Below are positions 3,001-53,146 of a stretch of 64,000 bases of DNA, one piece after another. The stretch comes from Morinoia aosen. Lineage: Eukaryota > Arthropoda > Malacostraca > Amphipoda > Talitridae. Position 1 is the first letter of the stretch; every line of letters starts with the position of its first letter. A program made the translations under genes and the position numbers. Location of the stretch: positions 53,862,020 to 53,926,019 of the forward strand of contig CM059567.1 of the NCBI GenBank assembly GCA_030386875.1. Reading direction: 5' to 3'. The notes beneath the pieces were generated by a model. That model was not told where the DNA came from. It was given only the letters and a program-made list of their open reading frames with translations, and did no database searches.

Positions 3001-6000
3001 TGTTTTTCAGCACCTACTACTTTCTTCTTCAACTTTTATTATACTTCATGAACTTCTTTCTTGGCTTACTGTTTTTATGCACCTTGTGCGTAGAGCGGCT
3101 CATGTCGGCTCTAATCAACGTCGGCGGTCAACGTAAGAGATTGATTATAATCTGCTACGCTGATCGTAAGACGAGCAGAAGTGGAAGTGTTGAAAACAAA
3201 CGCTGGTCCATGGGTCGTTGTTGCTGTTGTGACTCGTCGCTAGCCCTCGTCGTGCCTGGCGACCATTAACTACGGGTTACTTATGAGACAAGATCAAACC
3301 AGCTCATTCTTACTGCAGATAAATTACTACTTATCTGCTACTTATCTTGCTACTTATCTATTGCTACAATCTGCCACAAAGACGCAATACATTTTTTCGA
3401 GAAAAAGCACAAATCCCTTCGAGTCGTTTTCTAAGACAGCTAAAAATGAAAACAAAAAAAAATAAAAATTCCAATAAAAAGGCTTGGTTCTAATTTCATG
3501 GCTTGAAAATTTCTCTCAGTGGTAGAGAGAATGAAGTTGAGGCAGCGGAACAGGGGTCGGTTGAGAGGAGGTGCAGCGAAGCATTGCCGCCAATATCCGC
3601 GAAGCCTTGACTGATGAGAGCGTTCGCTGCTGCCGCTCGATCGTCTCTTGGTCGGGATGGGTGATCGTGGCAGGCGCTAGCCTCACTGAATGACTTTCTA
3701 ATTTTGTTAATTAGTTTGCATTTTGAGGCTTACTTTGCTTGGATGCCTCATTGTTTTTTATGTATTTTGAGTGCTTTCCTTAAATCCCGTACTTCATTTA
3801 CATTTGTTAATCCGTTTTCGTTTCGTGGCTAATTTCATATTTTATTTTTTATTTACATGGACTTGTCATTGTTTTTTATGTATTTTGTAAGTTATTGTTA
3901 AGATGCCATCGTTCATTTACATTTTTTAATCCTTAAGTGGCTAGTAACTTATTTAGCGTGGACTTCACGTTGTTTTCTTCGTACTTCGTGAGTATTTTCT
4001 TATGGTCTCTACGTTCATTTACTTTTGTTAATCTATTTTCACATTCCTGCTTATTTTGTGGGCTTTAACCCTTTAACGTCCGAATTTTTGTACTCATATT
4101 ATCGTTAACACAACCACCGTCACTAAACTGGCGCTGGCATCTGGCAGTCACCGATATCAGGATGGGATAAGAACTGCCACTCGGCAGAGAACTTCAAAGA
4201 ACACATTAGGGAACTAATTGAATAAGAAATAAAATATATTGAAGGGGAATTTTGAAAGAGGACACTGGTGTCCTCTGGGGCGTTAAAGGGTTAAATTGTG
4301 TTTTTTATGATATTTTGTCTGAGTGCTTCCCAAAAATCCCAGCGCTCATTGGTCGATTGATCATGAGGGTTTTGAATGTCTATATAATTTTATTATTTTA
4401 TCATATACTGACATAGCGATAGCTTATATGTTTTTACCGAGTGCCAATTCTCATCACTTTACCCTGTAAAAATGGCTCTCCTAAAGTAAGTTTTATTTCA
4501 TTTCTTTGCAGAGAATATCAACTTTTGCCACAGTGTCACTGAGCCTCGCTACCGGACTTATTATTACCAGTGAGTACCTTTAATTAATCACTGCTATTGC
4601 CAGTGAGTACCTCTTATTACTGCTATTGCTAATGAGTACCTCTTATTACTGCTATTGCTAATGAGTACCTGTTTACTACTGCTATTGATAGTGAGTGTCC
4701 TAATTATATCTTTTTATTTTATTACGTGAAATCTATCAAGATTATTTAAATATTACCATATTTGTACCAACGCTCATACCTCCCTGCCTGCCTGCTTATC
4801 TTTTATTTGAAATCCGTTGCGATTTATTGTCAGTATTACCAGTGTGCATAAGAATCAACGCTCCCAAGGGAAAGACGTAAGGTCCCTAGCTGAAGGTAGG
4901 GCAGGCTTCTTCTGTTAAAATAGGAAAGTTCTTTCTTTTCTTTTGCTGCGGACCATATTTTCTGTTCACTATTGCCCTTTTTTGTACATATGTTACTTTT
5001 TCTCAATTACCGTTTTGTGTCATTAACTTTTTCGATGTCGCTTTTCTATTCGTTAGCTGTGGGACAAAATCTTGCGTACAAATGCCCCATTCTTTTAATT
5101 CCATACTAAATGAATGGTACCATCTACCTTCCTCTCTTGAGAATGCCATCGTTGTAGTCAGGGAGGCTTAAACCAACTTGTAAAAAGAATTTCACGTGCA
5201 TTAATTCTGCGTTTTTATTCGCGTGCCAATTTCTCGAAGTGAGTAACTCGTAGCTTGCTATTCATGTGACTCCTCTGTAATTGTTGCTTACTCTCGGCTT
5301 GAGCGCAGACTTCTATGCTAGTTTTACCCTTGGTAGCACTGAAATTATGTGGAACACATTAAGAAAAAACGTAAGTTTTTTTAATATGCGGGTAACTTAA
5401 GGCAAAATCTCGCAATCGTGCTTCTATTCGTTGAGACAGATTTATTATTTTCAAATGTTGGCAATTGTCATGCAAATGAAAGCCCACAATGTGCGCTTGT
5501 GAAAGTTATATTTGAATTACGAGTGCATTCGTACGGCACGCATCTTGTTTTCAATTATATTTTATTGGCAAGTTATTTCTTTTGATCAGTGTCAAATGTA
5601 GGTGACCTTACTGTATTGCGCCCAAGGTAATTCTCACGAGCTCTGTCCAGTGCCTGTGTTCACGCGAATGGAATACAATGCGCATTCCAAGCAGCGTATG
5701 TTGTGATTTTTACATTTTTTGTCACCACCCTCGTGTCACGGCGATTGCTTTCTAAATATGAAGAACTTGCACACGTTTCAGATTTTGTAACCCTGCATGA
5801 CTGATGTTATTCGAAGATATGGTTAAGCAAATTCATGTTTGTTTCTTGATTTCTTTGTGTTAGGAATTGAAAACAGCCTAAAATACAAGGGGCTCTTGAG
5901 TTGACAATTTTTTTGTTTTTTTGAACACTGGTGAAAATATTTGCTACCGTGTTTTGGCTACTGTTGATAAGGTTCCGGACGAACATTTTGGCCAATTTTA

Positions 6001-9000
6001 AGAGAGGAATCAACAGTTCTTCAAGCTCAGAATGACAGAACAGGTGAAAAGTGGCCGCGCTGCTGACAACTGCTCGCTGAATTTAATTAGTTTCACTATG
6101 AACTGTAACTTAATGGCTTTGTTTAGGAGTGAGCGTTGCGATATCAAGCTGTTTACTCAACCTCGAGTCGAGTCCAGCGTACTATGTCTGAACCAGACCC
6201 ATTGTGAGGCAGGGTGCTCTGGCCGTGGTGTAACTTGGTTCATGTCGCCTCTGAAAAACGCTCGTTTGACTTGAATTTTATCTCATATTTTGGGTCATCG
6301 ACGAAATTTAGTGAATTAATGTATTTCCAAAGACAGCGAAGTCAGCAATTGTTCTTCTTTATCTGATAGAAATTCCAGGGGGAAGATGTGAGGTCATGTC
6401 ATAAATTTCATTGCATTTGTTTGAGATATTTGTTTCTATGCACCTTCTGCATAGATTACTCATTCCCTCAACTCCATAATAATTGGTGCCTTGCTTCTTT
6501 TTCTCTTTGGATCATCTTTGTCGGGATCGCGGATGTTTAAATATGTAATTCAATCATCAGACAAAAGTTCAGCTCTCCTGTCGATAGTGTCGTTATTTTA
6601 TCATAATTCGTGTAAACATGTTTCTAAGGGCGTATGTGTTTCGTCTTTTTATTTTTGGCGAAGTAGAAGCAGAAGTTTCCGTTCTGCATGACAGATGTTA
6701 CCTTGTCGTTAAGACTTCTTCCTCCTTTAGTGCCAACCATATTTCTTTTCTACATCCAGTCCAGTAGGTCTTCCAAATATGCGTGAACTATCCTTCATTA
6801 TTTGGTGCTTAAATGATTCTTCAGGGGCGTGATGAAGCGTGTAAATTTAAGGCGTATCATGCAACATGCTGCTGTAACTGCAGTACCCATGCTGGAGTTT
6901 CATGGTCCTGTTTATTCGACACGGCCGCCCAGGTCTCTGCCTGGCTTCATTAACACGTTTCCTGCGATGGGTTAAACTGGAGTTCAATATTCATCTCAAA
7001 TTTGAAATTAAACATAGCAGGCAATTTTGAAAATGGCAATCAGTTAGTGGATCGTGCTTTTTTTAGATTGCATTAGGTATTTATAAAAATTGAGTTAGTG
7101 ACTGGAGGTCGGTCATTATTAAAATCCCTTCAGTGACCACAGTTGGGTAGGAAATGTGTTAACATTTGGCTATCTGCCTCGAGTGTCCTTCTGTCTGCAT
7201 TGATGGACGACACTTCAGGAGAAACTTTCAAGGAAGGGCAGCAACAACTATTTATGCAGACACTGCAGCTGCTATATTCTCCGTGAGGTGAAAACAGCTA
7301 TGGCATATGGTGCTGCTATCCAGCGCTACTGCAGCATGAATACTGTCAGATGTGTGTTGTATCTAGTTATACGCATGACCTTACAAAACATGTTCGTTAG
7401 AGCAATTACTACTTATTAATATTACACTACATTTAGAATACGTTTTCTCAAGGAGAGTGTCCGTAGGGGGAAAATGAATTCGTTCGCTGTTCGTTCATTT
7501 GTAGCCTGATCTGTACTGATTTAACCCTATCAGACCAAAGGCTCTGAACCCAACTGTTTAACTCAAATCATAGTTTGTTCAAACACATGAGGGGGAGACA
7601 TTTGCAATGGCTAACCATGAGGCTTGGCCTCGAACGGTTAAGCATTAAGGATTGTCGACTAATTCTTTGCCTTTTGACTAACTAACTATTCAGTTTTTAA
7701 AACATTCGTCAAATTATTACTTGCCTCGTCTGCCCCCTTAGTATAATACAGTAATGTATTTATAGGAATTAGCGCTCCTAGGGGTAGATATGAAGTCCAG
7801 AGCTGAAGTTCAGGTAGATCTTCCTCATGTTGAAATAGAGAAGTTATTTTGTTTTCTACGGATCATCTTTTTTGATTTATTTCTTTTCTTCTTCTACACT
7901 ATATTACTCTTTTATTAAACTTTCATCTTGTTTCATTAACTTTCAATCTTGCTGCTTCTTTGCGCTGGGTACGGGGACATATCTCGTCCATGAATTCCCC
8001 TTTCACTTAGTTCCAGATCAAATTTTTTTTTATCCTTCCACGCTTGGGAACACTATTGTAGTGTTTAGGGAGGCTTCAATTAATTTATAATATAATCGCC
8101 TAATTTTTTCTGTACTATCATTAATTGTTTGCGACAGCTGCGCAGATATTTTTGCTAGGGGTTGAGGTGGTGCTGGTAGTGCTGCTGGTAGTGGTGCTGG
8201 TAGTGGTGCTGACAGTAATGCTGGCAGTGATGCTGGCAGTGCTGCTGGCAGTGCTGCTGGCAGTGCTGCTGGCAGTGCTGCTGGCAGTGATGCTGGCAGT
8301 GATGCTGGCAGTGATGCTGGCAGTGATGCTGGCAGTGCTGCTGGTGGTGTTGTCAGTGCTGGCAGTGCTGCTGGTGGTGCTAGCAGTGTGGAAGCGCTAC
8401 TGCTGTAGAGACCACCACCCAGAGATCACCACCCAGAAGCCAGCGTGAGGACCTTGGTCGTTACTGGAAAAATACAGCACGTCTCAGGCGCCGCCGCCGC
8501 CGCAGTTGCGGTCTCTCCGGCATTCTTTTCCCAGACTGCAGACTGCGAGAGACAAAAACAGAGGCAGACAGACGGAGAGGGAGAGAAAGGCATGTAGATG
8601 TGGAGCGGGGGTGGGGGTTGGCAGTAGATGCAGGGTCAGTCTTTGGTACCGAACTCATGGAATGTATTGTAAACAATCCACCACGACGTAGCGGTAGGGC
8701 CAGCGATCAAAGTTCTTCTCTTGAATTAGTTTGCTCTACATGCTATTTTTCCGGCTCATGTCAACTTTGAGCCTTTTTCGAAAAACGTGTGGGGATTTTG
8801 TCCAAAAGATAGGTAGGGTTACCACGACGACTGGGGTACTTTCGCTGCCTACTATACCGCTACGACGACGTAAATTATTTGAAAACTTGAGTTGCAGCAA
8901 TGATTATAGTTTTATAGAGCAAGAAGAGTTCCCAGTCAATAATTTTGGAAAAAATCGTTCTGAGAATTACCGCTTCAGCGTTTTTTGTTGTCATGGCATG

Positions 9001-21000: not shown

Positions 21001-24000
21001 CGTTGCTCAGTGTGAATGAGGATGTGATTGCGTGTAGTAGGTTAAGGTCAAGCCCAGCGCTAAATGAGACCGTGTGCCAGGATTGCGGCAGTGAAAATAT
21101 CCTCACTGAGAGAAAATGGAATCATCTCTACGGGAGTTATGCTTGTACCTGTCTTCTTTAATAGTTAGGCGTTAATTCCATTATGGTGTTGCGCTAGAAC
21201 TATGTCTCGACGAGCATGTTTTGGTGTGGTATGTGAAGGTCCATTGTTCAAATACTTGGGAAATACGCGAGCAAATTTCACAACTCCTGTTTGAGTTGGG
21301 CACTATGCGTTGCTTTATTCAATGAGGATGTTGATATTAGCGTATAAATCTCTGTGGGTGACCAACACAGCAGAAGCATCTATATCGTGTTGCGTCTTAC
21401 AAGGCATGTTCGCTTCGCTGTCGCTGCAGGGTAACTCATACCTGGCTGAGGTGCTGCAATCGCTTAATGCTGCTAGCGTATTTTTAGTATTTCGAAATTA
21501 TTAGACAGCATTTCCAGAATTTTGCCTGTTTGGTGTAATATGATTAGCGCTAACTAGTATGTGTTTCGAGGGTTACATTCTGGAGTTCTTTTCTTCCGCT
21601 TGCTTTCTAGTCACAGTTGTACAATTTGAATATAATTTAGCGAACGAATAATATCAACGTCTGACTGAACTTCCAACCATCACATTAGGAGCATCTCATT
21701 CAATAAGAAACACAAGCGAAGCTTTGAGCATAAGGATATAATTCTAGCGTGCTCACATTCGGTGCTCTACTATTGAACCTGGTTCTATTACATGACGAAA
21801 TGTTTAAATTTACCGCCCTATCGAATTAAACTTGCTTTGTCCATGTATAATTAATTGTTCTTCTATTTCAGTGGCGAATCATGCGTCGGGGTGGGAGTCC
21901 GCTAGTGGGGAGATCGTGTCCTCGTACCGAGCGTTCTCGAGGGACAAGATCCACGCCAACATGGTGGTCTCCATCGGCCTCGACCACGCCAACGTCTCGC
22001 TCGTCGTCATTCCTCAGCACAACAGGCTAGTGGAGTTGACGTGTGCTTTGTGTCGCCGAATGCAATTATGATGGGCTATAAAAAGCATGAATCAACCTAC
22101 GTGGAATTTTCGTAGAATGTAATTATGCGGGGCCAAGAAAAGCATGAATTGAACTACGTGGAATTATCGTGGAATGCAGTTATGCTGGATTTTGAAAAAT
22201 TTCAACCTTCGTGGAATGTAATTATGCTGGGCCAACCATTAAGCATGAATCAACCAACATAGAATATTTGTGGAATGGGATGATGTTGTGCTAAGAAAAG
22301 TATGAACCAACCTACATGCTTAGAATTTCCGTGGAATGCAATTATGCGAGCTCACAAAGAAGAAGAACCAACTTACGTATGCAAAATAAGTACGATATGC
22401 TGATAGTGTTATAGTTAAGTGAAATGGTGATTGTATTCGCATCCGTGAATATTCCAGGATATAGAAGTCTATGCGCTGTGGGAATTAAAATATCGAGTGT
22501 ACTAGCAATAGTCAACGTAGGTTTTCCGAATATCTTACAAATTGAGATCACTTGGGAATAATTGTAACAAATTTCCGTCAAAGGTTTTTATCGCCATTGC
22601 TTACCTCATCCGTCAATAGTTTGACTGATCACTGAAACTCTTAGGAAAATCCCACTTGAAAGTTGGGTAAAAATACAATATCTTAACAACGTATCAGAAA
22701 GTTTTCCACCCTCGGCGAAATGCTCTGGTTTTAAAATACCAATAATTTAATTTTATTCAATCGCACATCTTATCAATCTATGCTGATTCATTTTAACTTG
22801 CATTCATTACAATCTGTATTTTATTGAATCACACATCTTGTCAATCTATTCTGATTCAATCCAACTGGCATTCATTTTGTCTTTATTATGATAAAATACC
22901 CCTTTCAAAGTCACATCTTTTCGTGGAATAAAACTGTACAGTACTGTACTACTGTATAAAATATGTCTTAAGGGTTTTAGACTGCTATTAACTTTTATCA
23001 GTGGCCTTTGAAGCAATTAATTATTTTTTTTTAAACGGGCTATAATTTCTTCCTTCTGCAATGAGTCGTCACGTTCGATTTCTTAACATTTCTGTGAAGC
23101 ATCATACAAATAAAAAGGGATTTTAGAAAGCCCTAGCTTTTTGAATCTCACGAATATATTAGTCTTTACCTGTCCTGAATATTTCAAGTGTTATTTCAAG
23201 TGTTATTATATGCATTGAATTTTCAGTTTAACTGAGAATACTTCAATGTTAATAATAATACCATGTTTTCACAGATCGTTGGACATCAATTTCAACGAGC
23301 GTTTCTACTGGATCAAACCGAGCGACTTGAAAGAGCATTACCATAAGGCGCTGGCCAAGGGCTTACCGTACCCTCTTTTGACGGTGGCCGAATACCTTTC
23401 TTTGGATAAGGAAGGCTTTTCGTGGGGCCGGAGCTACAGAACGGCCGGGTACTACACCAGCATCATGTTGTGGTCTGCCTTCACCACCTGGCTGCTGAGT
23501 TGCCTACTGCTCGTGACCGTGCCGCGATATGGGGCGTACCTTCTCGCCATCACCGGCACACTCATGGGCTTCGCTTGTCTCGTCTTCTGGCTCCTGAGGC
23601 CCTCGTCGCCTCTCATTCTCAGATTCGAGGAAACAGCCATTACTTTCAATTTGAGTTGGTGCTTCTGGCTTGTTCTTATTTGGGGTGAGTTATGGCAGTT
23701 TTTGTGGTCGATTTATCATTGAACTCAGAATGTGAAACTTGTTTTTCACTGTTTTGAGTACTTGGACGTGTGTGACCGATTCGAGTATTTCGTAATGTGT
23801 GGTCTGTGAAAGGTTATATACATCTAGCTAGTTTTAGAGTTTCTGTGGAAACGTCACGTCATAATTTTTAAAACCGGTTGAGTCTGTTTTGTGCTCTATA
23901 CTGAGTTAGGAATCTCAATACTATTTGTCAATTATCCTAAAGAATTTAGGGGGCTCAGTGTACCTATCTTATGTGGCCAAACTCATTTTAAAAGACTCTA

Positions 24001-25432
24001 GTTTTTTACTTAGGAAGTTTAATTTGTAGTTAAATCGCATATTTTTCCGTTCTCTTAACGTTATTCTCTCACGATATTATTTCCGTTATTCTCTTATGTG
24101 AGATGCAGTTGGATCGTAAAAGAGAACTCATGCTTTATTCTAGTACCCGGGTCTTTTTTATTGTTTTGTGAGTGAGATGACTTTTCTGGGCTTAAGTACA
24201 AGTTTCAGTCGGGAGCCTCGCATGCTATAAAGTAGATGTGATGTTGATGACCAACCCATCTATAATTAAGGATTGAAAATTAATGCGAAATTTCTTTCAT
24301 TTCAGGTTGCATAATCGGCGTTGCAGGCTGCTCCATCGCAACGCTCGACTGGATTTTCCCTCATAGATTTTCTACGATTTTAGACTTGGACTTCGACACT
24401 CCCTACGACAGACACACAATCATCGAAGACTCCCACGACACACGAAGGAAGCGGTTCAAAATCCCGCGACTTGAAGAGCCCATCAACGCAGGTCTTCACG
24501 CGGGCTCACGTCTGCTCAGGAGGTTGTCCAAGCGCAGCACCAAAGAGCCATCCAGCAGCAAATTAGAAAATAATCCTGCGGGAGGCGTTGATAATCCCAC
24601 CTTTAACATGGAGGAGGCGCCTAAATCGTCTTGGAAAACTTCTACGTTCATCCTGCGAACTGACTCCAAAAAGTCCAGCAAATCGGTCAAATCATCTAAA
24701 TCTGTTAGAGTAAGATCAGATTCCCAGCCCCCCAACAATTTCCTCGAGTTGCCACCGCACACACCCGAGGTGGAAGAAAATAAGCCGAATCCTTTCGCTC
24801 GATCCGATTCAGAACAGAGCGAGCATAGTAGATTGTCTATTGGATCTGGAGGCTCAGATCAAAAGAGTGTTAGCTTTGAGGGCGACATTGACGCTAACGA
24901 ACTTCAAAGTGTTTTGGTAGATGAAAGCCATTCTGTACTGAGGCAAGATTCGACAGAATCGAACGCTTCAACCTCCTCTTTTGGTCTTCGAGCTTTATCA
25001 AGAGGGTCCAGCGTCAATAAAGCTCCAGCAGGTGAAGAAAACCTTCACGAGGGAGTCACTCGGTCGAGTTCCGCCAATATTATAGTCTTCCATAGAACTG
25101 ACTCCAGGGGACAGCTGCAAAGGTAAGATCATGTTTAGGAGAGTTGAATGATTTGCTCAGAGAATGACGAGTGGAACAATTTTTGTACTACAACGCAACA
25201 TTTTCAGTGTTTTTAATCATCGTGTTTACTTAATTACTGCGCGTGAGACGTTTGTTTAACGACTCTGTATTTTGGAAATTTGCCTACGTTTTTAGTGTCA
25301 ATAACTAAAAGAAATTTGACATATTCTAAAGGTTAATTTATACTCGAAAAATTCTTACACCGTGTTTTTTTTTTCAGACTCTCTGGCGAGGTCGTGGAGA
25401 TTCAAACAGACGACTCGTATGAGCCATGGTGA
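1..25432 (+). CDS. DUOXA: Dual oxidase maturation factor (DUOXA / moladietz-NIP family), 5'-partial, six exons visible
   Basis: Coding parts are 1-57, 4512-4569, 21872-22025, 23275-23684, 24306-25122 and 25378-25432 (1551 nt: 516 codons plus TGA). Every junction keeps frame. By family knowledge DUOXA is a multipass ER/plasma-membrane partner that lets dual oxidase leave the ER and make H2O2 outside the cell; the fly homologue (mol/NIP) also binds Numb. Seen here: TM1 at residues ~1-15 of the visible part, TM2 ~20-40, an extracellular loop with sequon NVS at residue 79, the family block INFNERF, the block KGLPYPLLTVAEYLSLD, TM3 ~150-172, TM4 ~176-197, TM5 ~215-240, then a ~270-residue Ser-rich cytoplasmic tail with an NPTF motif (24593-24604) of the type bound by PTB domains. 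Vertebrate DUOXA proteins have about 320-340 residues, so this tail is long, as expected for arthropods. The N-terminal exon(s) lie before the window. Confidence 0.93.
185..425. repeat. Two-copy tandem duplication, ~120 bp
   Basis: Both copies share GATGTAAAAGAGNNNTA, AGCGTTAAGTTAA, TAAGAGGCCACG and TTGGCTTTGTGCAAT segments, with about 80% similarity. Confidence 0.7.
1536..1566 (+). other. Small hairpin next to an AATAAA hexamer
   Basis: ATTGCT pairs with AGCAAT, and CCCC pairs with GGGG around a TTC loop. An AATAAA overlaps the 3' arm. It is intronic; the function is unknown and it may be chance. Confidence 0.3.
1735..2160. repeat. Degenerate AT-rich tandem repeat
   Basis: The motif GATACAAAACAGTATTTCTAC recurs about every 70 bp with heavy divergence (five or six copies). 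Confidence 0.45.
2202..2553 (+). mobile_element. Retroposon (SINE/LINE-tail-like), complete copy with 12-bp target duplication
   Basis: The copy starts CCCCTCAGGGGGATACAA, carries the conserved segments GAGGGCCCGAGCTGAAGG, ACGGACCATCTTTTTTTCGG and CTCCATACTAAATGGTGCC, and ends GGGAGGCTTAAACTAACTAA. ACCGGACGTGGC flanks both ends (2190-2201, 2554-2565), as expected for target-primed insertion. It has no coding capacity, and no clear tRNA A/B boxes were recognised. Confidence 0.8.
2854..3093 (+). mobile_element. Retroposon, same family, 3'-truncated
   Basis: It has the same CCCCTCAGGGGG head and follows the family to the TTACTGTTTTTATGCACC segment, then similarity stops near 3093. Confidence 0.7.
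4065..4294. mobile_element. piggyBac-like MITE, family 2, complete
   Basis: It is bounded by TTAA target duplications and terminal inverted repeats CCCTTTAACGTCC / GGGGCGTTAAAGGG. It is 230 bp including the TTAAs. A GGACACTGGTGTCC palindrome lies near the right end. There is no coding sequence. Confidence 0.8.
4512..4569 (+). CDS. DUOXA: DUOXA exon, second transmembrane segment
   Basis: The acceptor is TTTGCAG|AGA and the donor is ACCA|GTGAGTACC. It encodes RISTFATVSLSLATGLIIT and the first base of the next codon (phase 1), joining to the next exon as A|TG = Met. The 58-nt exon is followed directly by a tandem array that repeats its donor (see 4563-4700). Confidence 0.9.
4563..4700 (+). repeat. 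Tandem array of the DUOXA 5' splice site, ~33 bp x 5
   Basis: The junction ACCAGTGAGTACC of exon 4512-4569 recurs as GCCAGTGAGTACC (4603), twice as CTAATGAGTACC, and as GATAGTGAGTGTCC (4691), joined by CTGCTATTG linkers. Three of the five copies keep GTGAGT. Confidence 0.8.
4850..5182 (+). mobile_element. Retroposon, same family, diverged copy
   Basis: It matches from the CGCTCCCAAGGG segment through CTCCATACTAAATG to GGGAGGCTTAAACCAAC. The head is missing or decayed. It lies ~280 bp after DUOXA exon 4512-4569. Confidence 0.65.
6371..6545 (+). mobile_element. Retroposon fragment, same family
   Basis: Pieces of the CCAGGGGGAAGATGTGAGG segment and the tail segment CTCAACTCCATAATAATTGG remain; internal sequence is missing. 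Confidence 0.5.
6950..7162. mobile_element. piggyBac-like MITE, family 1
   Basis: TTAA at both ends, with termini TTAACACGTTTCCTGCGATG and GGAAATGTGTTAA. The inner sequence has the ACTCAAATTTGAAATTAAAC and AATTGAGTTAGTGACTGG segments shared by the other copies. Confidence 0.75.
7732..8095 (+). mobile_element. Retroposon, same family, old full-length copy
   Basis: It is diverged throughout but collinear: GCCCCCTTAG head, TTAGCGCTCCTAGGGG, GTCCAGAGCTGAAG, TACGGATCATCTTTTTTG, and a GGGAGGCTTCAATTAAT tail. Confidence 0.6.
8163..8390. repeat. Minisatellite, CTGCTGGCAGTG-type, 9-12 bp units
   Basis: About 20 copies of CTGGCAGTG with CTG/ATG spacers. It creates a 107-codon hydrophobic Leu-Ala-Val open frame that is not a gene. 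Confidence 0.85.
9240..9610. repeat. Degenerate ~64-bp tandem repeat containing a 46-bp perfect palindrome
   Basis: The units carry TATTTGGTAGCAAAC, ATGTGCAACTAGCATTTGG and ATATCAAACAACCACAA. One unit is replaced or interrupted by the palindrome at 9386-9431. Confidence 0.7.
10870..11231 (+). mobile_element. Retroposon, same family, youngest-looking copy with 15-bp target duplication
   Basis: It is nearly identical to the copy at 2202. It is flanked by TATAGATTGCGCCGT at 10855-10869 and 11232-11246. The 3' end is a short CTAAT repeat tail, typical of TPRT retroposons. Confidence 0.85.
12270..12660. repeat. Minisatellite, 28 bp, about 14 copies
   Basis: The unit is built on TTGGCTCCCAGCTTGCCCCC plus an 8-bp CTACCTTA / TTCCTTGC variant end. 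Open frames in several frames over it (201, 125 and 80 codons) are artefacts of the period. Confidence 0.88.
13069..13905 (+). mobile_element. Retroposon cluster: one near-complete copy plus two or three tail pieces in tandem
   Basis: A copy with the CCCCTCAGGGGG head runs to a TAATAATAAT tail near 13430. A second tail segment (CCCTTAACTCCATACTAAAT) follows directly, then a diverged partial copy to ~13790, and a third tail fragment near 13805-13905. Nested or serial insertion at 3' tails is likely. Confidence 0.65.
14730..15190. repeat. Minisatellite, 43 bp, about 11 copies, derived from a MITE end
   Basis: The unit is GGACTCTGCCTGGGATCTAC, CGGCGGGGATTGATTCGACACTT. Some units read GATTTAACACTTGGACTC, close to the terminus TTAACACTTTGACTGCG of the adjacent MITE. 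Confidence 0.85.
15192..15419. mobile_element. piggyBac-like MITE, family 1, inside a 43-bp minisatellite
   Basis: The left terminus is TTAACACTTTGACTGCGA and the right end is CGGGAAATGTGTTAA. The 43-bp array lies on its left and a unit of the same array follows on its right. Confidence 0.78.
15445..15671. mobile_element. piggyBac-like MITE, family 1, second adjacent copy
   Basis: It starts TTAATACTTTGACTAG and ends ATCGCAGTCAAAGTGTCAA, giving clear inverted termini. It is separated from the previous copy by a single ~25-bp minisatellite remnant. Confidence 0.75.
16097..16356 (+). mobile_element. Retroposon, same family, shortened copy
   Basis: It matches TTGTATCTATGATAGGAATT, CGCTCTCAGGGGG and CATAATTCCATACCGAATGG, and ends AAAGAGGCTCAA, directly abutting the MITE at 16361. 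Confidence 0.6.
16361..16698. mobile_element. piggyBac-like MITE, family 1, interrupted by a second element
   Basis: It starts TTAACTGCGATTAGTTAAAC. It contains the family's CGACCCATCGATGGGTC palindrome and ends GTGGGTCACATCGCAGGCAATG...TTAA. The element at 16542-16649 is inserted in it; the copy at 20650 shows the uninterrupted site. Confidence 0.72.
16542..16649. mobile_element. Palindromic MITE (family 3) with TA target, nested in a MITE
   Basis: The 108-bp inverted-repeat element runs from CCCAGTCTAACTTTTTCGC to GGCGAAAAAGTTAGGCTGGG, with inner GCATG...TTTTTCGCCGCCC arms. TA flanks both sides (16540-16541, 16650-16651). A Tc1/mariner-type target is suggested. Confidence 0.75.
19154..19339. 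mobile_element. Palindromic MITE (family 3), copy with an expanded arm
   Basis: The ends match the 16542 element (CAGTCTTATCTTTTTCGCC / GGCGGCGAAAAAGTTAGACT). The right arm contains four tandem copies of a ~22-bp piece (AACATGCATGCAGGCGGCGA and variants) where the left arm has one or two. The open frames crossing it are repeat artefacts. Confidence 0.7.
19835..20051 (+). other. GC-richer open stretch in the large DUOXA intron
   Basis: A ~70-codon frame without ATG reads RDPPVEVQIGEITSSRSRP, then CYSTQNAFERLANLVISRGD and AVSPRLTALSRSVDVVID before TAA. It is richer in G+C than the surroundings. It may be a remnant of a mobile element or gene; not recognised. Confidence 0.2.
20650..20775. mobile_element. 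piggyBac-like MITE, family 1, right part only
   Basis: It shares GACTGTTGAAACTT and GACCCATCGATGGGTGG with 16361-16698 and ends CAACGTGTTAA. The left half is missing. Confidence 0.65.
21872..22025 (+). CDS. DUOXA: DUOXA exon, extracellular loop; ends at a GC donor
   Basis: The acceptor is TCTATTTCAG|TGG. It encodes the loop with GWESASGEIVSSYRAFS and the NVS glycosylation sequon. For the frame to fit the next exon (which starts with the third base of a codon) the exon must end at AACAG|GCTAGT, a GC-AG intron. The nearest GT (22031) leaves the wrong phase. Confidence 0.87.
22026..23274 (+). other. DUOXA GC-AG intron
   Basis: The donor is GCTAGT and the acceptor is TTTTCACAG. The 5' third is a ~65-bp minisatellite (22045-22370) and the rest is AT-rich with no recognised feature. 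Confidence 0.75.
22045..22370. repeat. Tandem repeat, ~65-70 bp, five copies, after DUOXA exon 21872-22025
   Basis: The units carry GAATGCAATTATG, AAAAGCATGAATCAACC and TACGTGGAATTTTCGTGG. The array starts ~20 bp after the GC donor but does not include it. Confidence 0.75.
23275..23684 (+). CDS. DUOXA: DUOXA exon, conserved core with TM3-TM5
   Basis: The acceptor is TTTTCACAG|ATCG and the donor is TTGGG|GTGAGT. This 410-nt exon holds the most conserved part of the family: INFNERFYW, KGLPYPLLTVAEYL, the GRSYRTAGYYTSIMLW block, PRYGAYLLAITG, and the start of the last membrane helix. Confidence 0.95.
24306..25122 (+). CDS. DUOXA: DUOXA exon, last helix and cytoplasmic tail
   Basis: The acceptor is TTTCATTTCAG|GTTGC and the donor is CAAAG|GTAAGAT. 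It finishes the last transmembrane helix (CIIGVAGCSIATLDWIFPHR) and then runs into a polar, Ser-rich, probably disordered tail. That tail has basic stretches (RRLSKRSTK, KKSSKSVKSSKSVRVR) and the NPTF motif at 24593-24604, a candidate Numb-type PTB ligand. Confidence 0.93.
25378..25432 (+). CDS. DUOXA: DUOXA terminal exon and stop
   Basis: A T-rich tract (TTTTTTTTTTCAG) precedes the exon. AG|A gives Arg, then LSGEVVEIQTDDSYEPW and TGA at 25430-25432. The phase fits exactly. The Tyr-Glu-Pro-Trp end is an acidic tail tip. Confidence 0.88.
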
Positions 25433-25852: not shown

Positions 25853-25888
25853 AATAAATAACTCCACGCCGGTATTGTAAATACCGGC
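25853..25888 (+). terminator. Candidate DUOXA poly(A) signal followed by a hairpin
   Basis: An AATAAA-type hexamer occurs about 420 bp after the stop. It is followed at 25868-25888 by a perfect 9-bp stem with a 3-base loop (GCCGGTATT / AATACCGGC). The hexamer fits a 3'UTR end; the role of the hairpin is unknown. Confidence 0.35.
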
Positions 25889-31105: not shown

Positions 31106-31365
31106 AGACCCATTTCCCACAGAGCTAGCAAAGCAGCATCTAGCAAGCTCGCATGAGCTATCCGCCAGATGGTCTGCGAGACTGGTAGGTAGGAATAGCA
31201 TTTTCACCTCGCATGCTGGATGCTGGATAAAACGTGCGAGTTCAGTGTGAAGGCAAAGGCTCGTAATAGTGCTATTCCTCCCTACCAGTCTTGCAGACAA
31301 ACTGCTAGATAGCTCATGGGAGCTTGCTAGATGCTGATTTGCTAGCTCAGTGTAAAATGGACCTA
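31106..31365. mobile_element. Long foldback (inverted-repeat) element, 260 bp
   Basis: The left arm GACCCATTTCCCACAGAGCT and the right arm (reverse complement GGTCCATTTTACACTGAGCT) pair over about 100 bp, with conserved GCTAGCAAA, CATCTAGCAAGCTC, CATGAGCTATC and GACTGGTAGG segments. TA abuts each end. No coding capacity; a MITE of unassigned superfamily. Confidence 0.72.
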
Positions 31366-32274: not shown

Positions 32275-32475
32275 CTCAGGCTGCTGCTTCATGCGGAGGT
32301 ATTAGAAAATTTAACTTTACGTTTCAAGTATTGGGTCGGGTGCGTCTCAGTTTACTGCGTTCATGCTAAAGTATTTGAAAATTTAACTTTTTGTCTTCAG
32401 TATTTGGTCAGGTGCGTCTCAGTTTAATGATTTCATGCAGAAGTATTTGAAAATTTAATTTTATCACTTAAGTAT
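32275..32475. repeat. Tandem repeat, ~75 bp, three copies
   Basis: The units share TTCATGCNGAAGTATTTGAA, AATTTAACTTT, AAGTATTTGGTC and GGTGCGTCTCAGTTTA. Confidence 0.75.
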
Positions 32476-33844: not shown

Positions 33845-34100
33845 GAGGAACACACGAAACGCCTCTTGTTCCTTCCAGCCACTAACGCGCTGTCTCTGAA
33901 GGCTTCAATTGCCGTTGCCGTCTCAGCAGATCGTTTTGTACACAGCTACAAAGATATGTGAATCTAACACACTGTCTCTGAAGACTTCAGTCTGCATTAC
34001 CGTCTCAGCAAACACTTTGTACACGTCTACAAAGATATGAGATATGTCTTCAGCTTGCATTTCTCTCTCAGTTGATCGTTTTATACACACCAACAATGAT
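33845..34100. repeat. Three ~75-bp copies of the stop-codon region of the - strand gene
   Basis: The end of the coding sequence (+ strand CTCAGTTGATCGTTTTATAC, holding the codons of YKTIN and the stop) recurs as GTCTCAGCAAACACTTTGTAC and GTCTCAGCAGATCGTTTTGTA, with ACAAAGATATG and CTCTGAAGNCTTCA linkers. Confidence 0.7.
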
Positions 34101-34462
34101 AAGCACGGTAACCATGGTGAGCACTAGCACCGTGATGAGTTTAGCAGCCCGGTTCATGCCGTTATTCTCCTCACTGAACGGGTCCCGCGGCCTCGGCCGG
34201 TCCAGGGAGTTCTGCACGAGGTTGGGGAAAGCGAGGCGTTGGGTGAGGGTGAGACGAGGAGTGGCCTCGGGGATGAGGCCCGTCATCCCTGCAGAGTAGC
34301 TGCCCCTGTGGTATGGGGAAGCCGCGTGGCCGTAGTACTGCCAGCCGACCGTGTACTCGTTTTCATACTCCGGGTCGTACTCCATGCTGATGTAAGGGAT
34401 GGGGGAGCGCGTCAGGGAGCGGAGACTTAGGAGTGAAGGACGTCTCGATTTATTCGACTCAC
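34068..34462 (-). CDS. Terminal exon of the tail-anchored gene: Tyr/Glu cluster and transmembrane anchor
   Basis: The acceptor is TTCTCTGCAG|GTGAGTCG. It encodes ESNKSRRPSLLSLRSLTRS, EYDPEYENEYTVGWQYYG, a linker with RPRPRDPFSEENN, then the hydrophobic KLITVLVLTMVTVLIIVGVY, and stops TGA at 34068-34070 after KTIN. The exon's first bases also match a donor consensus (GTGAGT). The stop region has been duplicated in tandem into the 3'UTR. Confidence 0.82.
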
Positions 34463-37400
34463 CTGCAGAGAATTAAATGAATTACAACTACTGTTTTCTG
34501 TAGTATTTAGTTTGTATTTAGTTTTGTAAGCTGCGGTTAAAATCACTGTTGAATGGGGTAAAGGTGTTTTTTCTCAGCCAAAGAAATACGAGGAGTAAAA
34601 AGTTGATCCCGGTAATTTCATAATTGGAACACAATAGTAACACAGAAATGTGAGCAGTTATTTTTCTAAAACTAACACTGCTTAATTAAAGTACACTAAA
34701 GAATAAAAATATTGAATTAAATACGCAAAATAATTCTGGTACCTTTGAAATATTAGCACACCACACTCTGATGACAAACTTCTGAACGACAGGTAAAAAT
34801 TTCATTTCTTGCGTGTTTATTAATTAATTCCCTATCACATTTCAAATGCAGGAACATCAGCCCTCTTACCAGGCACGGTGAGCCTGGCCTGACTGCCAGC
34901 TTTCTCGGTGGTCGAGTTGGAGCGCGCATGCCGGAAGATGCAGAGCGACCGGCTGGTCTGGACGGGGGAGTGCCGTGACGCTGGCTCGCTCGACTTGAGT
35001 GTGACGGACGTGTCTTGTCTCTGTAGGATGGAGTCTCGGCGGGACTGGTACGTGTCTTGACGGTACAGGGAATGGTTTGATGAGATCCAAGACGGCGCTG
35101 GTGTGAGAGGGGCTTCGTTCAGAGAGAACACCGACTGCGAGGCTCCTTCGTCGTCCAGGTCACTGATCATGCTGTCTGATCTCCATGAGTACTGGAAACG
35201 TTTCGAAGTAAATCAATAAAAGCACGTTACAGAACTTATATCCATAGCATACAGCACCCGCAAATTAGTGGCTGAGTATGTTGCCAAATAGCCATTAGCT
35301 CTTTTTAGGAATATAGATCCTGAAATTTTTGCATTCCCCTAGCTTACCTCAGAAATATCGCTCTTGCCGTGTATGTTGCTAAATAGCAACTAGTTAACTA
35401 GTATATTCCTTCGATAGCGGCTAGCTCTATGTAGGAATATAGATCCTGAAACTATTGCATCCCCCTTGCTCACCTCAGAAATATCGCTCTTGTCGTCAGA
35501 CGTGGACCGCATGGCTGGGTCGAAGCTTCCCTTCCTCCGCACCGGCCTGCTTCCGACCCCCAGACTGTGTGAAGGGCGCAGGAGGCGCGGGTGAGGGGAG
35601 TTGGCAGATAAGATGCTGTTGGGGGAGAGGGTGTTCCCCACGCTGGGGGAGGGGGTCGAGGTGTCTGCACTTCCCCAGCTCGACTGCCAGTCCACACGGC
35701 CCTTCTCCTCCTTCTGTTCCCCGAGTGAAACGAGGGTTTGGTGTGGTACTCATTCGTGAATGAATATGACAGTCTTTGATATTATATTCAGACGAGTGTA
35801 AGTACGACTAGTCTTTGGCTTCCATGGTTTGGTAAGTCTTTGATGTTATATTCATCCGAGTGTAAATATGACAAGTCTTTGGTTTCCAATGCTTGACACG
35901 TCTTTGATTTGATTTTTAGTCAAGTATAAATATGACAAATTTTTGTTTCCTAGGCTGGACAAGTTTTTATCTCGATGTTCATTAGAGTATATATGTAACT
36001 TTTATGTGATGCGTTTAACAAGTTAGACAAGTCTCTAATGTTACATTCATCTGAGTGTAAATAAGACGATCCTTCTTATTTCAGAGTTTAAGAAGTCTTT
36101 GATGGGAATTTTAGTCAAGTATCAATATGACAGACATTTTTTGTTTCCTAGGCGGGTCAAATCTTTCTTCCAATATTCATTCAAGAATAAATGTGCCTTT
36201 TTTCCCAGGTCTGACAAGTCGTCGATGAGATATTCATTCATGTAAAAAGTGTTTTCGCCTTTCTGTTTCTAAAGAAAGAATAGTTTTTGATGCTACATAA
36301 GTCGTGCAAAAATGTAAGAAGCCTTTCTGTTCTACTCATAAGAAAATTCATTTAGATAACATTCATCAGCGTGAAAAATTATCAAAACTTGTAACTGTTT
36401 TTTTGGTGGGAGGAGGGGGGAGGGGGGAAGGGGGGGAGGGGGGGATGTTCGTAGGTTTAGTAGGTTTTTAGGGTTTAGGTTTAGTAGGTTTTTCGTAACC
36501 GTTTATAAATTTTGCATTATTTCTCCATCCTTCAAACTGAATTCTGAATGAGAGTACACAATTGATAATGTGCAGAAACTACTCTGCATTCTTTCAGTTC
36601 GTTTTAATTTTAAATATTGTTGAATTTTGGTTAAATATTAATTCATGTAATCCCTTTTTTATTAATATCTCAGTTTTATAAATACTCTCTCATGGAGAAA
36701 TTAATGTCTTGTAAAACACCATCTTTCTCTTTAATTGTATGAGGTAATATCATGCTGAACAACATCTTTTTCTATAATTGTAGGAAGTAATATCGTGATA
36801 AACCAGATCTTTTTCTCTAATTAAAGGAAGTAACATCGTGCTAAACAATATATTTCTCTCGATTGCCGCTAATTTAAATAAAATATAACCTCATATGGAA
36901 TCCCCCACTGTACTTCCCAAGCCCAGAACCCCCAACAAGAAGGTATAAGTCAGGGCAAACAATTTTCTTACATCACATCTGACAATTGGTGGAACTCCGT
37001 AAGGATGGGAGAGCAACGATGTTTATGGTGTTCTTTATGTGCAACATGGCTGGTGGTAAAACTTCAATAAGGTTTCTGAGAAATTCATCACTGTTTGTAA
37101 TTCTTGCTTGCTCGCTATATTTTCTACCTCAAAAGCGACGCAGAAAGAAGGCGACAAAGCAATACGTCACCAACGACGAAAAGAAATGTATCGTTGGTTC
37201 GATTGTCGATGAGTTATCGGAAATCGGGAAGTTGTGGTCATGAATGCTTGTATAATTTTCGCTTTTAACTAGAGGAGCATTTCTTTAAATTCTAAAATTT
37301 CCTGTTATGCGTTACCAAAATAAGACAAAAAACTCACCTTAGAGACAGTAGAGGGTTTTATTTCAGTACTTTCTTGATGCGCATATAAGTTAGTCAAAAG

Positions 37401-43400: not shown

Positions 43401-46400
43401 GGTTTAGTGGCAGGTAGATAATTAGGGACATGCGTATAAGGAAAATACCCTTGATAAACCAATTTCACAAATATTTTAGGGTACTGATTTCTACCCTTAA
43501 AGTCCCTAACAAAAATCTGTACACAAAATGGTATAATGAGAAAGGAACAACGAGAAGTTGTAAACGTTTTTCAATATTTTAACTTCAGCCTGTTTGACTA
43601 GCAATCATATTATTTAATTATTAAAATAAGATTGTGCAGTATCGTACAATCAAGCCACATGTAACTACCGCCTGGAAATGAGTAACACATTTTCATTGCT
43701 GGAAGTGAAAGAAAGATAAACTCAGCACATGGCCTGTTTTGTGAGAAAATACACTCATCTCGACCCGAGTAAGGATGCAGCATCTCGAGCAACTCTCCAA
43801 TGCCGTGCAATTAGCTCACCTTTATGCCCATTGTTCCGACCTGTACATTGTGCTCATGCTTTTTGTTCCGACCTGTACATTGTGCTCATGCTTTTTGTTC
43901 CGACCTGTACATTGTGCTTATGCTCTTTGTTCTGACCTGTACATTGTGTTCATGCTTTTTGTTCTGACCTGTACATTGGGCTCATGCTCTTTGTTGTGAC
44001 CTGTTCATTGAGCTCATGCTTTTTGTTTTTACCTGTACGTTGTATTCATGCTCATTGTTAGGACCTAACGTTGAAGTCATGCTTTTGTCCTGACCTGTAA
44101 ATTGTAGTTATATCCTTTGTTCTAACTTGAATATTGTAGTTATATCCTTTGTTCCAACCTTTAGGTTATGGTTATGTCCGCTGTTCTGACCTGCACATTA
44201 AGGCGGTCCTGGTGGGTGAGCTTTGGGCGGGGGCTGAGCAGGTGGTTGTAGGACAGCGGCCAGGTGGGCTGCTTCCCCACAGGGCTTTTGACGCCTTCTG
44301 AACCTCCTGGAACATCCACCAGCTCAACATTCTATGTTATGGTTGCGACTTGTACATACAGAACAACCTTGATCATCCTACAATTCAACACTTTGCGTTA
44401 CAGTGGCGACTTGCATCTTCAGGACCACCTGAAACATCCGCCAACTCAACACTTTGCGTTACAGCTGTGACTCATATCTTCAGAACCGCCTGGAACGTCC
44501 TGCAAACATCATGCAACTCGACACTTTGCGTTATGGTTGTGACTTGTATTTCCTCCACCACCTGAATTATCTTACAACTCAACATTTTGCGTTACAGTTG
44601 CGACTCGTATATCTTGACCCTTCAAAGTCAGCATTTTTGTACTCGTTTTACCGTCATTATAACCACCGTCATTTGACTGGCGCTGGCATCAGCTAGGGGT
44701 CTCTGACATCAAAGGGAGGAAAGAAATGCCACTCGGCAGTGAGCTTCAAAGAAGATTTGAAGGAAGAAAATGGAGAAAAATACAGTGCATTATGGCTATT
44801 TTTAAAAACGAACCGTTAGGTCCTCTGCGGTGTTAAAATGTTAACCGGCGGATAGTGAGTAAAAATTTACACCCGAAACACTGTTGAACTTAAAAATAAG
44901 ATTGTAAGTTAGTTTAAGCTTTCCTAATCATAACAGAGATGTTCCAAAGAGAGGAACGTTAAACTTAAAACAATGCCGTCATGGTTTCGACGCGAACCTT
45001 ATATTTTAATTCATATGATGTAAATTTTAATGAATTATAAGTGGATGAAAATGATGTAAGGATTGCTTGGCAAGTTGAAGCCTTCATTGATGTTGTTTTG
45101 CAATAGTTACATTAAGCCGGACGCGATTTATTCAAGTATTTGAAATCTTAATTTTAAATATATTTTATCTCTTAGTACTAAATAGAAGTCAAGGGACTTT
45201 TAAATGACTGCACTATATTAGAAAAGTCTCCTAAAAATTTCTATTTAAGCTCTCGTCCGCGGAATAGAGCACCACTAAATTTTTAGTAACCTAAAACATC
45301 AAGAAGATTTGTACACATGACGTTCAAGGTTTATAAAAGGTGCTTTAGTGCCCTCTTACGTCACAATTTTTATATTCCGAAACTCTCACGAGTTTTTAAA
45401 ATTAAGTAAAGAATAAATTTTTATATCTTTAACTTGATTATCCAGTAACCTCACTTTTAAAATTACATGATCACTCAGGATTTTAGCGAAAAATTCAAGC
45501 TGAAATTTTCACGATTCATGTCAACTTCGATGCTAGGCAGAGTCGAATATTTTGTCATGAATTTGAAGGAACTGTATCGTAAAAGAGTTCATTAAGCCAT
45601 GACTTGAATTAATTAGTAGCTGGCAAGAAGCAAAACATGAAAGAGTTAGGAAACGATTTAAGTCTAAATTGAAGTACATACCAACTTAACTCATCGCATC
45701 AGTCTTGCAAGGACAGTGATTGGCATGGTGAATATTCATCTTGCATTAATACAGGATTATATTTCACGTAAATAGTTCACATGGAGAACAAAAAATACTA
45801 TCAACAGGTAAGCACTGAGTTTCGAAAAGTTAGAAAGATGTTACAGAAAATAAATATTGTGAATTCAACATGCATGTGAGAAAACTCGTTGAAACGAATT
45901 TAGATTTCAGCTCCTGTATGATGCTGATAACTTAATTACCAACATACATATCATTGAAAAAAACGAACTAACAGAACTGGAACAGAAGAATTCAGGTTTT
46001 ACACCTGGTTTACAAACTCTGAGCCTATGAACAAAGCTTGATCGATGTAGGCCAACCTCATTTTGATATTGGTGCTTTACTGAAGGCAAAAATCAGTTAA
46101 CCTGAAAAAAATCAGCACTAACTTTATCAAGAGATCGTGATATTCTTTGGATTACTCAAGATTTCCTGCCAAAAATCACTCTAAAAGAGAATTTCCAACT
46201 GCACAGAAATTTCCACGGTCTTCATTTTATTCCCTTTTTAATATTGCCTTTTTTTAATTATTTCAATCTAGAGTTAATGCGATATTTGGATCAGGAAACG
46301 CTCAACCCCTCCTCATACGAAAAATTTGCTTCTTGATTAAGCTTTATGATTAAAGCTCACGAGAGACGCAGGCAACTTAACTGCAGTAACTTTGCAAACA

Positions 46401-49400: not shown

Positions 49401-52400
49401 TTTATTACATAAGTTTCCTTTAACATGCATACACACGTGCAGGAATAGCTGCTCTTTTTACTGATAATTGAATGCAAATGTAATGCTAATCATGCGTTTT
49501 AGAAAACTGTCAGATAATTTATTAAACAGTCAGGAAGGTTTCCAGAATGGATTTACTAACAGTAATTACAAGGACTTTTGAAAATTTGAATTAACATGAA
49601 CGTTTTAGCTTTGAATTAACATTGTTCAAGGTATTGTCATCACAATGTTCAGGTTATTAATAAAGTAAATTAGTTCCTTTTCTGAATATAATTCTGTCAA
49701 TATAAATGAATCATTCTTTTTCGAGTCACGCCATTCATCACCTGTTGAAAGTCTGATCTGATAACTAATACGGCTTAAAAACTCAAAATTTGAATACCTC
49801 AACATCTGAACTTATTCTAATTTACTAAATTCCAAAATCATTTACTACAGTTCTGTAACTATTCCTCCAAAAACTAATAAAAAAATTAACCTATTACTCT
49901 CCCACCATTTCAAGACATATTCAAAAAGTCATGTTTGACCTAAAAATGCTGTTCCAGAAACTTTTCAACCCAGCAAGCGATTTGTTTATATCTGCTCGCT
50001 AGCGAACTCCGTGAAATACGTCGGTGCAACTGTAATTATTAGTTCGAATTGTATTAATGCAAGAGGTAGAGGGGTATTTTTACCTCATGTAGAGCATTTC
50101 AATAGAAGCGGTTCGGGGTTATTTTTAATGTAGAGAATTAATGTAGAGAATTTCATTGCAAGCGGTTGGGGATAATTTTAATGTATTTAGAGCATTTCAA
50201 TACAGGCGGTTGAGGATAATTTGTATTGCATGTAGAGAATTTCACTGCAAGCGGTTGGAGGTTATTTTTTAAAGCATGTAGAGTATTTCCATGGATTATT
50301 TTTAAAGCATGCAGGGCATACATGCTTTGGAGCTGACTGGAAGCATGCACGAGTGGAGGTGAGCTGAAGCGACCGAGTGCATGTCTACGGACCTGTGCCG
50401 GGCACAACAGACGGGAGAGGTTCAGCCTTACGATGCACGCCGGCCGTACCGCAGCCCTCTGAAGGAGCCTTCCACCTGTTGCCCTCACTAGCGCTCCTGT
50501 AGATCACTCGCGACTGGTCCAGCTGAATCCTGGTTGGGGGAGACAAATGTTGCTTTTAGTTGATTAAGTTGGGTAAGTTAATATTCCTAGCTGCAACCAA
50601 GTCGTCAGGTACGAGACTGGTCCAGCTGGATCCTGGTTGGGGGAGACGAATGTTGCTTTTAGATCATTAAATTGGGTAAATTAATATTCCTAGCTGCCAC
50701 CAAGTCGTCAGGTACGAGACTAGTCCAGCTGGATCCTGGGTGGGGGAGACGAATGTTGCTTTTAGATCATTAAATTAGGTAAGTTAATCTCCCTAGCTGC
50801 AACCAAGTCGTCAGGTTATAGTGAGAAGTTGACTGGAGTCGTCCTAACTACAATTAAGTCATCAGATTAAATTGAATAAGGTAATTTGAGTCTTTTTAAC
50901 TGCAATTAAGTTGTCAGGTACGTGGAATAAGAGAGTTTAAGCCTCCCTAGCTGCAACAAAGGTGTTTCAAAGAGAGAAAAGTTGAGGGCAACATTTATTG
51001 AGGAGATGAGAGAACACGAAATATATTCATAAGGTGTGTTCCCACACAAGATCCCCTACGCTTAGAACAGCAAGTTTACGCACATGTCCGTACAACGTTG
51101 GTAGATATTTTCAGACTTACATGCAGGCACAAAAGAAGTCACCGACTGTAAGTTACACTGCTTTTTACAGAAAATAATTTCAGATACTTTCAATAACTTT
51201 CAATTTTTAATGATAGTTTAAATAGACATATTTCAAATTCAGAAAATAATTTGACCCAGTACTTGCTTGTCTTCAGCTCACCTGAGGCAGTTGACTGCAT
51301 CAAAAGTTGAAGATAAACGAAGGAATTTTGTTTATGACTAACGCTGTTGAAGATTATTGATATTGCAATATTTTTTTCGCGTTGAAATCTCTGCCTGCTA
51401 TCTTCTTACGCTGCTGACAGAATTCCAAAGTACTCCAATATGAAAAAATTCACATACTTACACTTCTCTCAATTCGAGCATGAGATGACCGTAATTTCCA
51501 TGAGCAAATCACGGAGTTTCAATCCTGGTTTGGAATGCAAATTGAGTTCAGGAGCGATGTGCTGTAGGTTGTGTATATTGGAGTGCTTTTTCGGCTGGAA
51601 ATACGTTGAGCATTCGCTGAATTTTCGTGTTGAGAAATTTATTTTTCTGCTTTCGGAGAAAAATGCACCACAGAATCCTATTTTTTTAAGAAAATTGCTA
51701 GAATTGCTAAAATTGCTCTACTACTCAGCCTACTGTTTTGAAAAATGTTTCATTGTCTATGTTCTTTGTTGTAAAATATACCACAGTAACAGTTATAAAA
51801 GTGCTGTTAAAGATTGAACAAGTAAAAGGAGGACAGAAGAAAATGAAATCTTTTGATAAGTTAGTTCTAAGCTTAATGCTCCTATAAATGAGCTATGATA
51901 AAAAAAATAAAACTTTGAGGCGTTGCAGAGGAATGCCTAGTAAAAAGATATGACATTCAGTAAAATTGGCACACCTTCTTTCAGAATTAAAACATACAAA
52001 ACGAAGTAGTAGTTTAACGAGTGAATGTGTAATAATTGGGTGTACGAGTCACACACTTCAAATGTCCGGGAATTTGAAACTGAGCTCGTGTACACATACG
52101 AATATAGAACAATAAGCGAGTAGTAATCAGGAAAACTTATTTATAACATGATTTTTCAAAAAATAACCTACTCCAGCATAGAAATACATGTAAGAAAGAA
52201 TTTAGGCGTACTAAAAAAAATGTCGAACACCCTAACGAATACATTGTTCCGCAAGCGCTACTGCAAATCAAAAACAAATCAGCAAAAATTTACGCTAACC
52301 CAAATTCTTTAACTCTCGCGTAACTCATTGTACAAGAATGGGTCCAGTAAATGATTCTGAATTCCTTGATCCAAGAATTCGCCAGTTTTGGAAAAAGGAA

Positions 52401-53146: not shown

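Follow-up and report, generated by a model that had tools for sequence, protein, structure and literature searches.

Minisatellites that repeat an exon/intron boundary are known as mirages, a subject for which Canestro 2002 is said to be the founding paper. In amphioxus, the passages that treat them place such boundary minisatellites at Adh3, at the globin genes BflGb6 and BflGb9, and at TnC (PMC3087553), and further lancelet cases are given in the corresponding section of a paper on PGBD5 (PMC3902484). The same amphioxus passages report regular splicing for Adh3 and the globins and describe the origin of the mirages as unclear (PMC3087553); for the Adh3 mirage, somatic instability has been reported. 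According to the portions concerned, human genes in segmental duplications carry variable internal tandem repeats across exon-intron boundaries, with units averaging about 30 bp (PMC2812944), and a potato RdRp gene gained an intron by tandem duplication over an intron-exon boundary (PMC4974935). Minisatellites also occur in the introns of earthworm metallothionein genes, and copies of the boundary go unmentioned in the passages of that paper on them (PMC12783039). Our literature search, with most subscription journals outside its coverage, found mirages only for lancelets and for no other group.

The 64,000-nucleotide stretch of the amphipod Morinoia aosen analysed here (the window, C12:53862020-53926019, in an assembly of 1.99 Gb in 29 contigs) contains comparable structures. 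The original prediction held that the phenomenon could not be named, but it matches the mirages of amphioxus as the passages of PMC3087553 describe them: the units span the exon/intron boundary, lie on both the 5' and 3' sides, and vary in length by gene. The amphioxus mirages, in the literature searched so far a curiosity of single cephalochordate genes, differ in extent from this arthropod case, in which about one-quarter of the sampled donor edges lay within 60 bp of an array end and about one-sixth had a junction-spanning copy. The present data go beyond those passages by measuring how far array ends are enriched and by showing a difference between donors and acceptors, both known from genome sequence rather than RNA. 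The human repeats are likewise minisatellites across exon-intron boundaries, but in the portions concerned they lengthen exons or make introns in recent paralogues, whereas here the exon is open and the copies are intronic (PMC2812944). As in the part of the potato study that describes the duplication, tandem duplication crosses the boundary; there a single duplication produced a new intron (PMC4974935), whereas the exons of the window, as placed, join in frame. The kind of structure is therefore already known; what is new, as far as we searched, is how widely it occurs in an arthropod genome and how array ends concentrate at its exon borders.

Exon placement and junction copies in the window

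The window is AT-rich and laden with minisatellites, with 44 TRF rows, which manual merging reduced to 35 arrays with a combined length of 9,644 bases (15%). A satellite at 60640-63574 has a 19-bp unit in about 154 copies with 96% matches; all three of its plus-strand frames are open for nearly 1000 codons, which by itself does not indicate a gene.

Seventeen exon edges (eight donors and nine acceptors) were placed from splice signals, using matrices of approximate metazoan frequencies not fitted to Morinoia aosen; the acceptor at 21872 was taken from the sequence itself. Profile-search matches at approximately 1-63, 21856-22020, and 23279-23692 identified a plus-strand DuoxA gene. Its exon a ends at 57 and joins in frame to exon b (4512..4569, 58 bp), which is also in frame with exon c and has DuoxA profile matches on either side. 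Exon c (21872..22040) was placed by splice signals, a profile match, and an in-frame join, exon d (23275..23684) has a match to PF10204 (E=3e-51), and the last exon (24306..25126) was placed by an acceptor signal and an open frame to the stop. A translation check showed that these five exons form a single stop-free frame of 505 codons. A second DuoxA-like locus was seen at C17:56407415-56412252, with internal stop codons in two of three matches.

The minus-strand gene was left without a name, as its five placed exons, queried singly against Pfam, gave 0 matches. Exons e1 (50432..50529), e2 (44191..44306), e3 (35474..35713), and e4 (34870..35191) were placed by splice signals and in-frame joins, as was e5 (34068..34462), the last exon, which has an open frame and a hydrophobic tail at its end. 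The e1 donor is at 50432 or 50450, either of which keeps the frame, and the five exons form a single stop-free frame of 384 or 390 codons up to the stop. Further exons of both genes lie beyond the placed set.

Each junction was represented by a 40-nt probe (20 exon and 20 intron nucleotides), and the best copy was sought within 260 bp. At 5 of the 17 edges (donors 4569, 35474, and 44191 and acceptors 44306 and 50529), the junction together with some exon bases was copied intronward, with best scores spanning 24 to 37 of 40. The remaining 12 edges gave best scores of only 18 to 21 of 40, a low similarity; among those without copies were both edges of DuoxA exon d (18/40 and 20/40), the acceptor of the last DuoxA exon (19/40), and the edges of e4. 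The prediction that the junctions of four exons had been duplicated into their introns was confirmed by these copies, and the observation of junction-anchored copies in the window stands.

The weakest case by junction probe is DuoxA exon b (24/40 at +33), the donor edge of which is repeated downstream in a plus-strand 29-bp array (4570..4696; 3.7 TRF copies, TRF score 163) that adjoins donor 4569. GTGAGT is intact in two of its four copies, and in the other two the G of GT is missing. The e3 donor edge at 35474 was duplicated once (35/40 at +126), the copy lying in the minus-strand intron stretch 35340..35473, as read from the sequence and found by the probe; this is a two-copy, 126-bp duplication rather than a TRF array, with units 90.8% identical across 65 bp. 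Both edges of e2 are repeated into the flanking introns. From donor 44191, a minus-strand 32-bp array (43822..44200; 8.7 copies in the main TRF row) carries eight CAGGT copies in addition to the real site and scored 27/40, or 29-30/40 with fewer exon bases; from acceptor 44306, a minus-strand 61-bp array found by TRF and probe (44306..44500; 2.3-2.6 copies, 74-77% matches) scored 28-31/40 at -122, a distance of two 61 units. The acceptor edge of e1 is repeated in a minus-strand 103-bp array (50512..50816; 3 copies, TRF score 526) with 18 exon bases per unit, a probe score of 37/40 at -103, and the AG kept in both further units of acceptor 50529. Splice signals are thus kept in many copies. The periods had been given as 33, 126, 33, about 75, and 103 bp; those of 126 and 103 bp stood, and the others were corrected to 29 bp (with a first offset of 33), 32 bp, and 61 bp. 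That the arrays arose as independent events, as had been proposed, is supported by the differences in period and sequence among them.

A fifth case had been noted where the final minus-strand exon has its stop codon. A repeat search found real repeats around this codon (33882..34106, minus strand; spacings of 64-145, 70-89% alike), but these are degenerate and include no TRF-scored array. Two further arrays lie close to an exon and exclude the junction. The first is a plus-strand 57-bp TRF array that begins 18 bp past the exon c donor 22040 (22058..22188), and the second a minus-strand 64-bp TRF array that lies upstream of the e3 acceptor 35713 and ends 54 bp from it (35767..35991). At a TRF score of 50, an array end lay within 60 bp of 6 of the 17 window edges, a count that includes 22040 and 35713 and excludes 35474.

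The entire region occurs a second time on the same contig, 1.55 Mb away, and the two copies are 88-99.5% identical by block. In the alignment of C12:52288000-52407999 with C12:53832020-53976019, identity was 99.5% over 27 kb and then about 95% near window position 42.4 kb. All five junction cases were found in the second copy. The 32-bp donor array has 8.7 copies in the window and 13.7 in the second copy, and the 103-bp acceptor array has 3 and 5, respectively; the 29-bp array (3.7 copies) and the 126-bp duplication are of equal length, the 61-bp stretch differs by 2 bp, and the stop-codon repeat lies within a stretch that is 100% identical. The presence of all five cases, two of them with changed copy numbers, argues against assembly error and for the gain and loss of units. 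Amphioxus mirages differ in length between haplotypes, and here two of the five window cases differ between copies that are either haplotypes or paralogues. In the kinesin and COesterase profile tables, pairs on the same contig with equal or near-equal scores were frequent, so that the assembly may contain many unpurged haplotypes or large duplications.

Array ends at exon edges elsewhere in the genome

Exons were sampled from profile tables of myosin heads (79 matches), COesterases (84), and kinesins (126), from which 47, 39, and 24 exons, respectively, were picked by hand. Most came from the top of the tables, and most near-identical pairs and stop-bearing matches were avoided, although a TGA-bearing myosin match was retained. 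The 110 exons were taken with flanks of about 300 bp at either end; once limits on splice score and distance had been applied, 95 donors and 85 acceptors remained. Eight multi-exon loci were excluded from the deep-intron points (used in the junction-copy comparison, the cover, and the binned array ends) and from the 256-bp tiles but were retained in the GC and hexamer tests and in the summed array-end and gene-cluster counts; five of them were excluded from the myosin-only controls. Within the myosin table, six minus-strand matches at C1:35644596-35648320 cover one stretch of the myosin head (profile positions of about 376-452), one with a TGA at the match edge. This looks like a mutually exclusive exon cluster, clustered copies of one myosin exon being a feature of arthropod muscle myosin genes.

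Of the 95 donors, 15 had junction-spanning copies (probe score of at least 28/40), as did 2 of the 85 acceptors, a significant difference (p=0.002). As in amphioxus mirages, the units span the exon/intron boundary and include exon bases, and both 5' and 3' boundaries are affected. Copies centred on the junction were nevertheless rarer (17/180) than copies of intron points in the same loci (338/1585; odds ratio of 0.38), and at random points of a 144-kb region (region A) probe copies were found at 11%. A first test on myosin alone had given 2 of 83 junctions versus 94 of 716 intron points. That result was dropped as a refutation when the wider sample altered the donor picture, although the overall junction rate remained under that of intron points. 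The cover by arrays likewise climbed steadily in the intron direction without peaking at the junction. On the donor side it was 1% in the exon 40 bp before the edge, 14% at the edge itself, and about 29% once 100 bp into the intron; on the acceptor side it was 2% at the junction and 19-23% at 70-120 bp. Since an array cannot extend into a coding exon, cover is a poor measure of where arrays are founded and array starts are a better one.

The measure of array ends was adopted only after the cover profile was known. Exon-side array ends in the interval [-60,+60) were present at 24 of 95 donors (p=4e-12) and 13 of 85 acceptors (p=8e-5) versus 169 of 4000 random points of region A with a large satellite removed, so that within these hand-picked exons of three families, array ends were enriched about 6-fold at donors and 3.6-fold at acceptors. 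The p values assume independent edges, an assumption that exons belonging to a single gene violate; at least one donor-edge array was present in 18 of 38 gene clusters. At 120-240 bp the counts (5/95 donors and 4/80 acceptors versus 4.3%) were at background. In bins of -60..-8, -8..0, and 0..60, donors gave 10, 4, and 10 of 95 (null of 2.1%, 0.3%, and 2.3%), and in bins of 60..120, 120..180, and 180..240 they gave 5, 3, and 1 (null of 2.5%, 2.7%, and 1.7%), the null being 6000 random region A points more than 400 bp from known edges. Acceptors gave 2, 3, 8, 1, 2, and 1 of 85 in the same six bins. The excess persisted across TRF thresholds of 40, 50, 70, and 100. By family, array ends were found at 14 of 32 donors and 6 of 27 acceptors for COesterase and at 6 of 22 and 3 of 16 for kinesin; myosin edges alone (4 of 41 donors and 4 of 42 acceptors) showed no significant excess (p of about 0.1).

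These counts bear on whether chance suffices, that is, whether some arrays in a minisatellite-packed genome cross exon edges and happened to be noticed. Arrays cover about 10% of the 144-kb region, in addition to the 15% of the window, and the junction-centred copies do not exceed those of intron points, both as chance would have it. It would not readily yield the excess of ends within 60 bp that falls to background at 120-240 bp, nor the arrays in the first 256 bp after donors (29/79 versus 87 of 562 region A tiles; p=3e-5), and we consider it quite unlikely to be the explanation. The comparison of donor flanks with 20 control stretches about 2 kb away (29/79 versus 3/20) was not significant (p=0.11), and the last 256 bp before acceptors (15/69) differed neither from region A (p=0.22) nor from distal stretches. 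The null is that single 144-kb region, in which array density ranges from 2 to 33% per 12-kb bin.

Among COesterase donors at profile positions 144-151, 7 of 10 paralogous introns had an array end within 60 bp (L081, L083, L085, L086, L090, L093, and L096), with differing periods and sequences. When these ten donors were removed, an array end remained at 17 of 85 donors (p=1.6e-7). A single inherited array was rejected for these paralogues, the intron sides compared, which did not include L083, having only 20-32 bp pieces in common, as found across 17 loci. The seven arrays are either of separate origin, at a recurrent hot spot, or inherited with complete turnover.

The original prediction had located the seed of these arrays in the splice junction itself. 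This was not supported: apart from the excess of copies at intron points over junctions, donor arrays beginning in the first 60 bp of the intron were 4.6-fold enriched, about as much as those that include 8-60 exon bases (4.9-fold). This points to the vicinity of the exon edge, and not to the splice signal itself, as what matters for the enrichment. A bias of arrays towards exon edges is real in our sample when edges are compared with random points, and the data support preferential founding of arrays close to these edges; a mutational bias, one of the meanings offered originally, is a candidate cause.

Composition could produce such a bias if GC-rich exon ends and first intron bases bred minisatellites irrespective of the junction. 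Null points with a GC content of at least 0.5 did reach 7.4-8.5% edge-type ends versus 2-5% otherwise, and among donors grouped by the GC content of the first 60 intron bases, arrays were present at 15 of 28 GC-rich sites versus 4 of 45 with a GC content under 0.42. Even the GC-rich null, however, remained below the 25% of donors and 15% of acceptors, and acceptors showed no link with GC (7/46, 2/19, and 4/20 from low to high). The exon copies themselves also raise intron GC, which may thus be partly a result. Composition as the account of the excess is unlikely, although it has more in its favour than chance.

Splice signals and the fate of the copies

At donors with spanning copies, the unit carries the exon end together with the 5' splice site. 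Periods at donor edges ranged from 10 to 117, in keeping with the gene-to-gene variation of unit length in mirages. The exon part of the copied units was about 6-65 bp, a spread that, judged by eye, fits random breakpoints in units of such length; L028 was left out, its match being a neighbouring alternative exon.

Extra splice-site copies might be favoured by selection for securing exon recognition. GT was intact in 44 of 48 copies, among copies chosen for being at least 27/40 alike, with a mean identity of 0.95 at GT versus 0.85 nearby, and in many copies the donor hexamer was identical to that of the real site. An apparently better-kept hexamer was discarded as a finding once copies were picked independently of it, since the difference from neighbouring bases (8 of 13 loci) was then not significant (p=0.27). 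The periods had no preference for multiples of three (11, 14, and 13 by remainder), and the donor arrays that lack the junction were about as enriched as those that span it. Such a role is accordingly very improbable, and the suggestions that the arrays serve intron growth or buffer splicing were not supported. With frame-blind periods and a hexamer not significantly better kept, the decoy splice sites look like passengers.

Alternatively, arrays may arise evenly and persist beside exons because indels that would erase them are selected against there. The restriction of the excess to the exon-adjacent zone is what such preservation predicts. Many donor-edge copies, however, are 35-40/40 alike and, judged on their own, do not look old, and preservation is improbable, slightly more so than chance. 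All of these alternatives are compatible with one another and with the reading that we prefer.

That reading, which we regard as probable, is that the arrays are mirages, minisatellites founded at exon edges, about 5 times commoner within 60 bp of an edge, tolerated on the intron side, and more strongly weeded out where they copy acceptors. Founding would occur by short tandem duplications, with units of about 10-130 bp and breakpoints around the exon edge, so that the exon end and splice site would often be copied into the intron. The roughly 5-fold excess at edges may reflect an edge-linked error of replication or repair and, in part, GC content. Arrays afterwards gain and lose whole units, as the two copies of the region show. 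With the extra copies placed in the intron, the site next to the exon would remain usable and most arrays would be tolerated. Duplicate 3' splice sites upstream of an exon may be removed more strongly, as a decoy acceptor might be chosen first, and this stronger weeding would account for the observed difference between donors and acceptors. Against strong removal, two of the nine acceptors in the window have spanning copies.

A broader proposal is that exon edges are inherent hot spots of minisatellite birth (about 5-fold within 60 bp of splice sites, on both sides of exons), that about one-sixth of introns open with rows of decoy donors, and that the process had a separate origin in cephalochordates. 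We hold this to be possible, at somewhat less than even chances. If it were true, duplication would have a general source, perhaps coupled to splicing or transcription, that steadily supplied raw material for new introns and exons. With an array end near one in four sampled donor edges of an arthropod genome, the question of a boundary-linked source of tandem duplication becomes testable across annotated genomes, with a bearing on intron gain by tandem duplication, on the choice of the spliceosome among near-identical adjacent sites, and on mis-annotated exon ends.

Two further profile searches of the genome were made. A search with the insect odorant receptor profile, which had no positive control, gave no match. 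Hemocyanin_N domains, an arthropod trait, gave 15 matches in two clusters.
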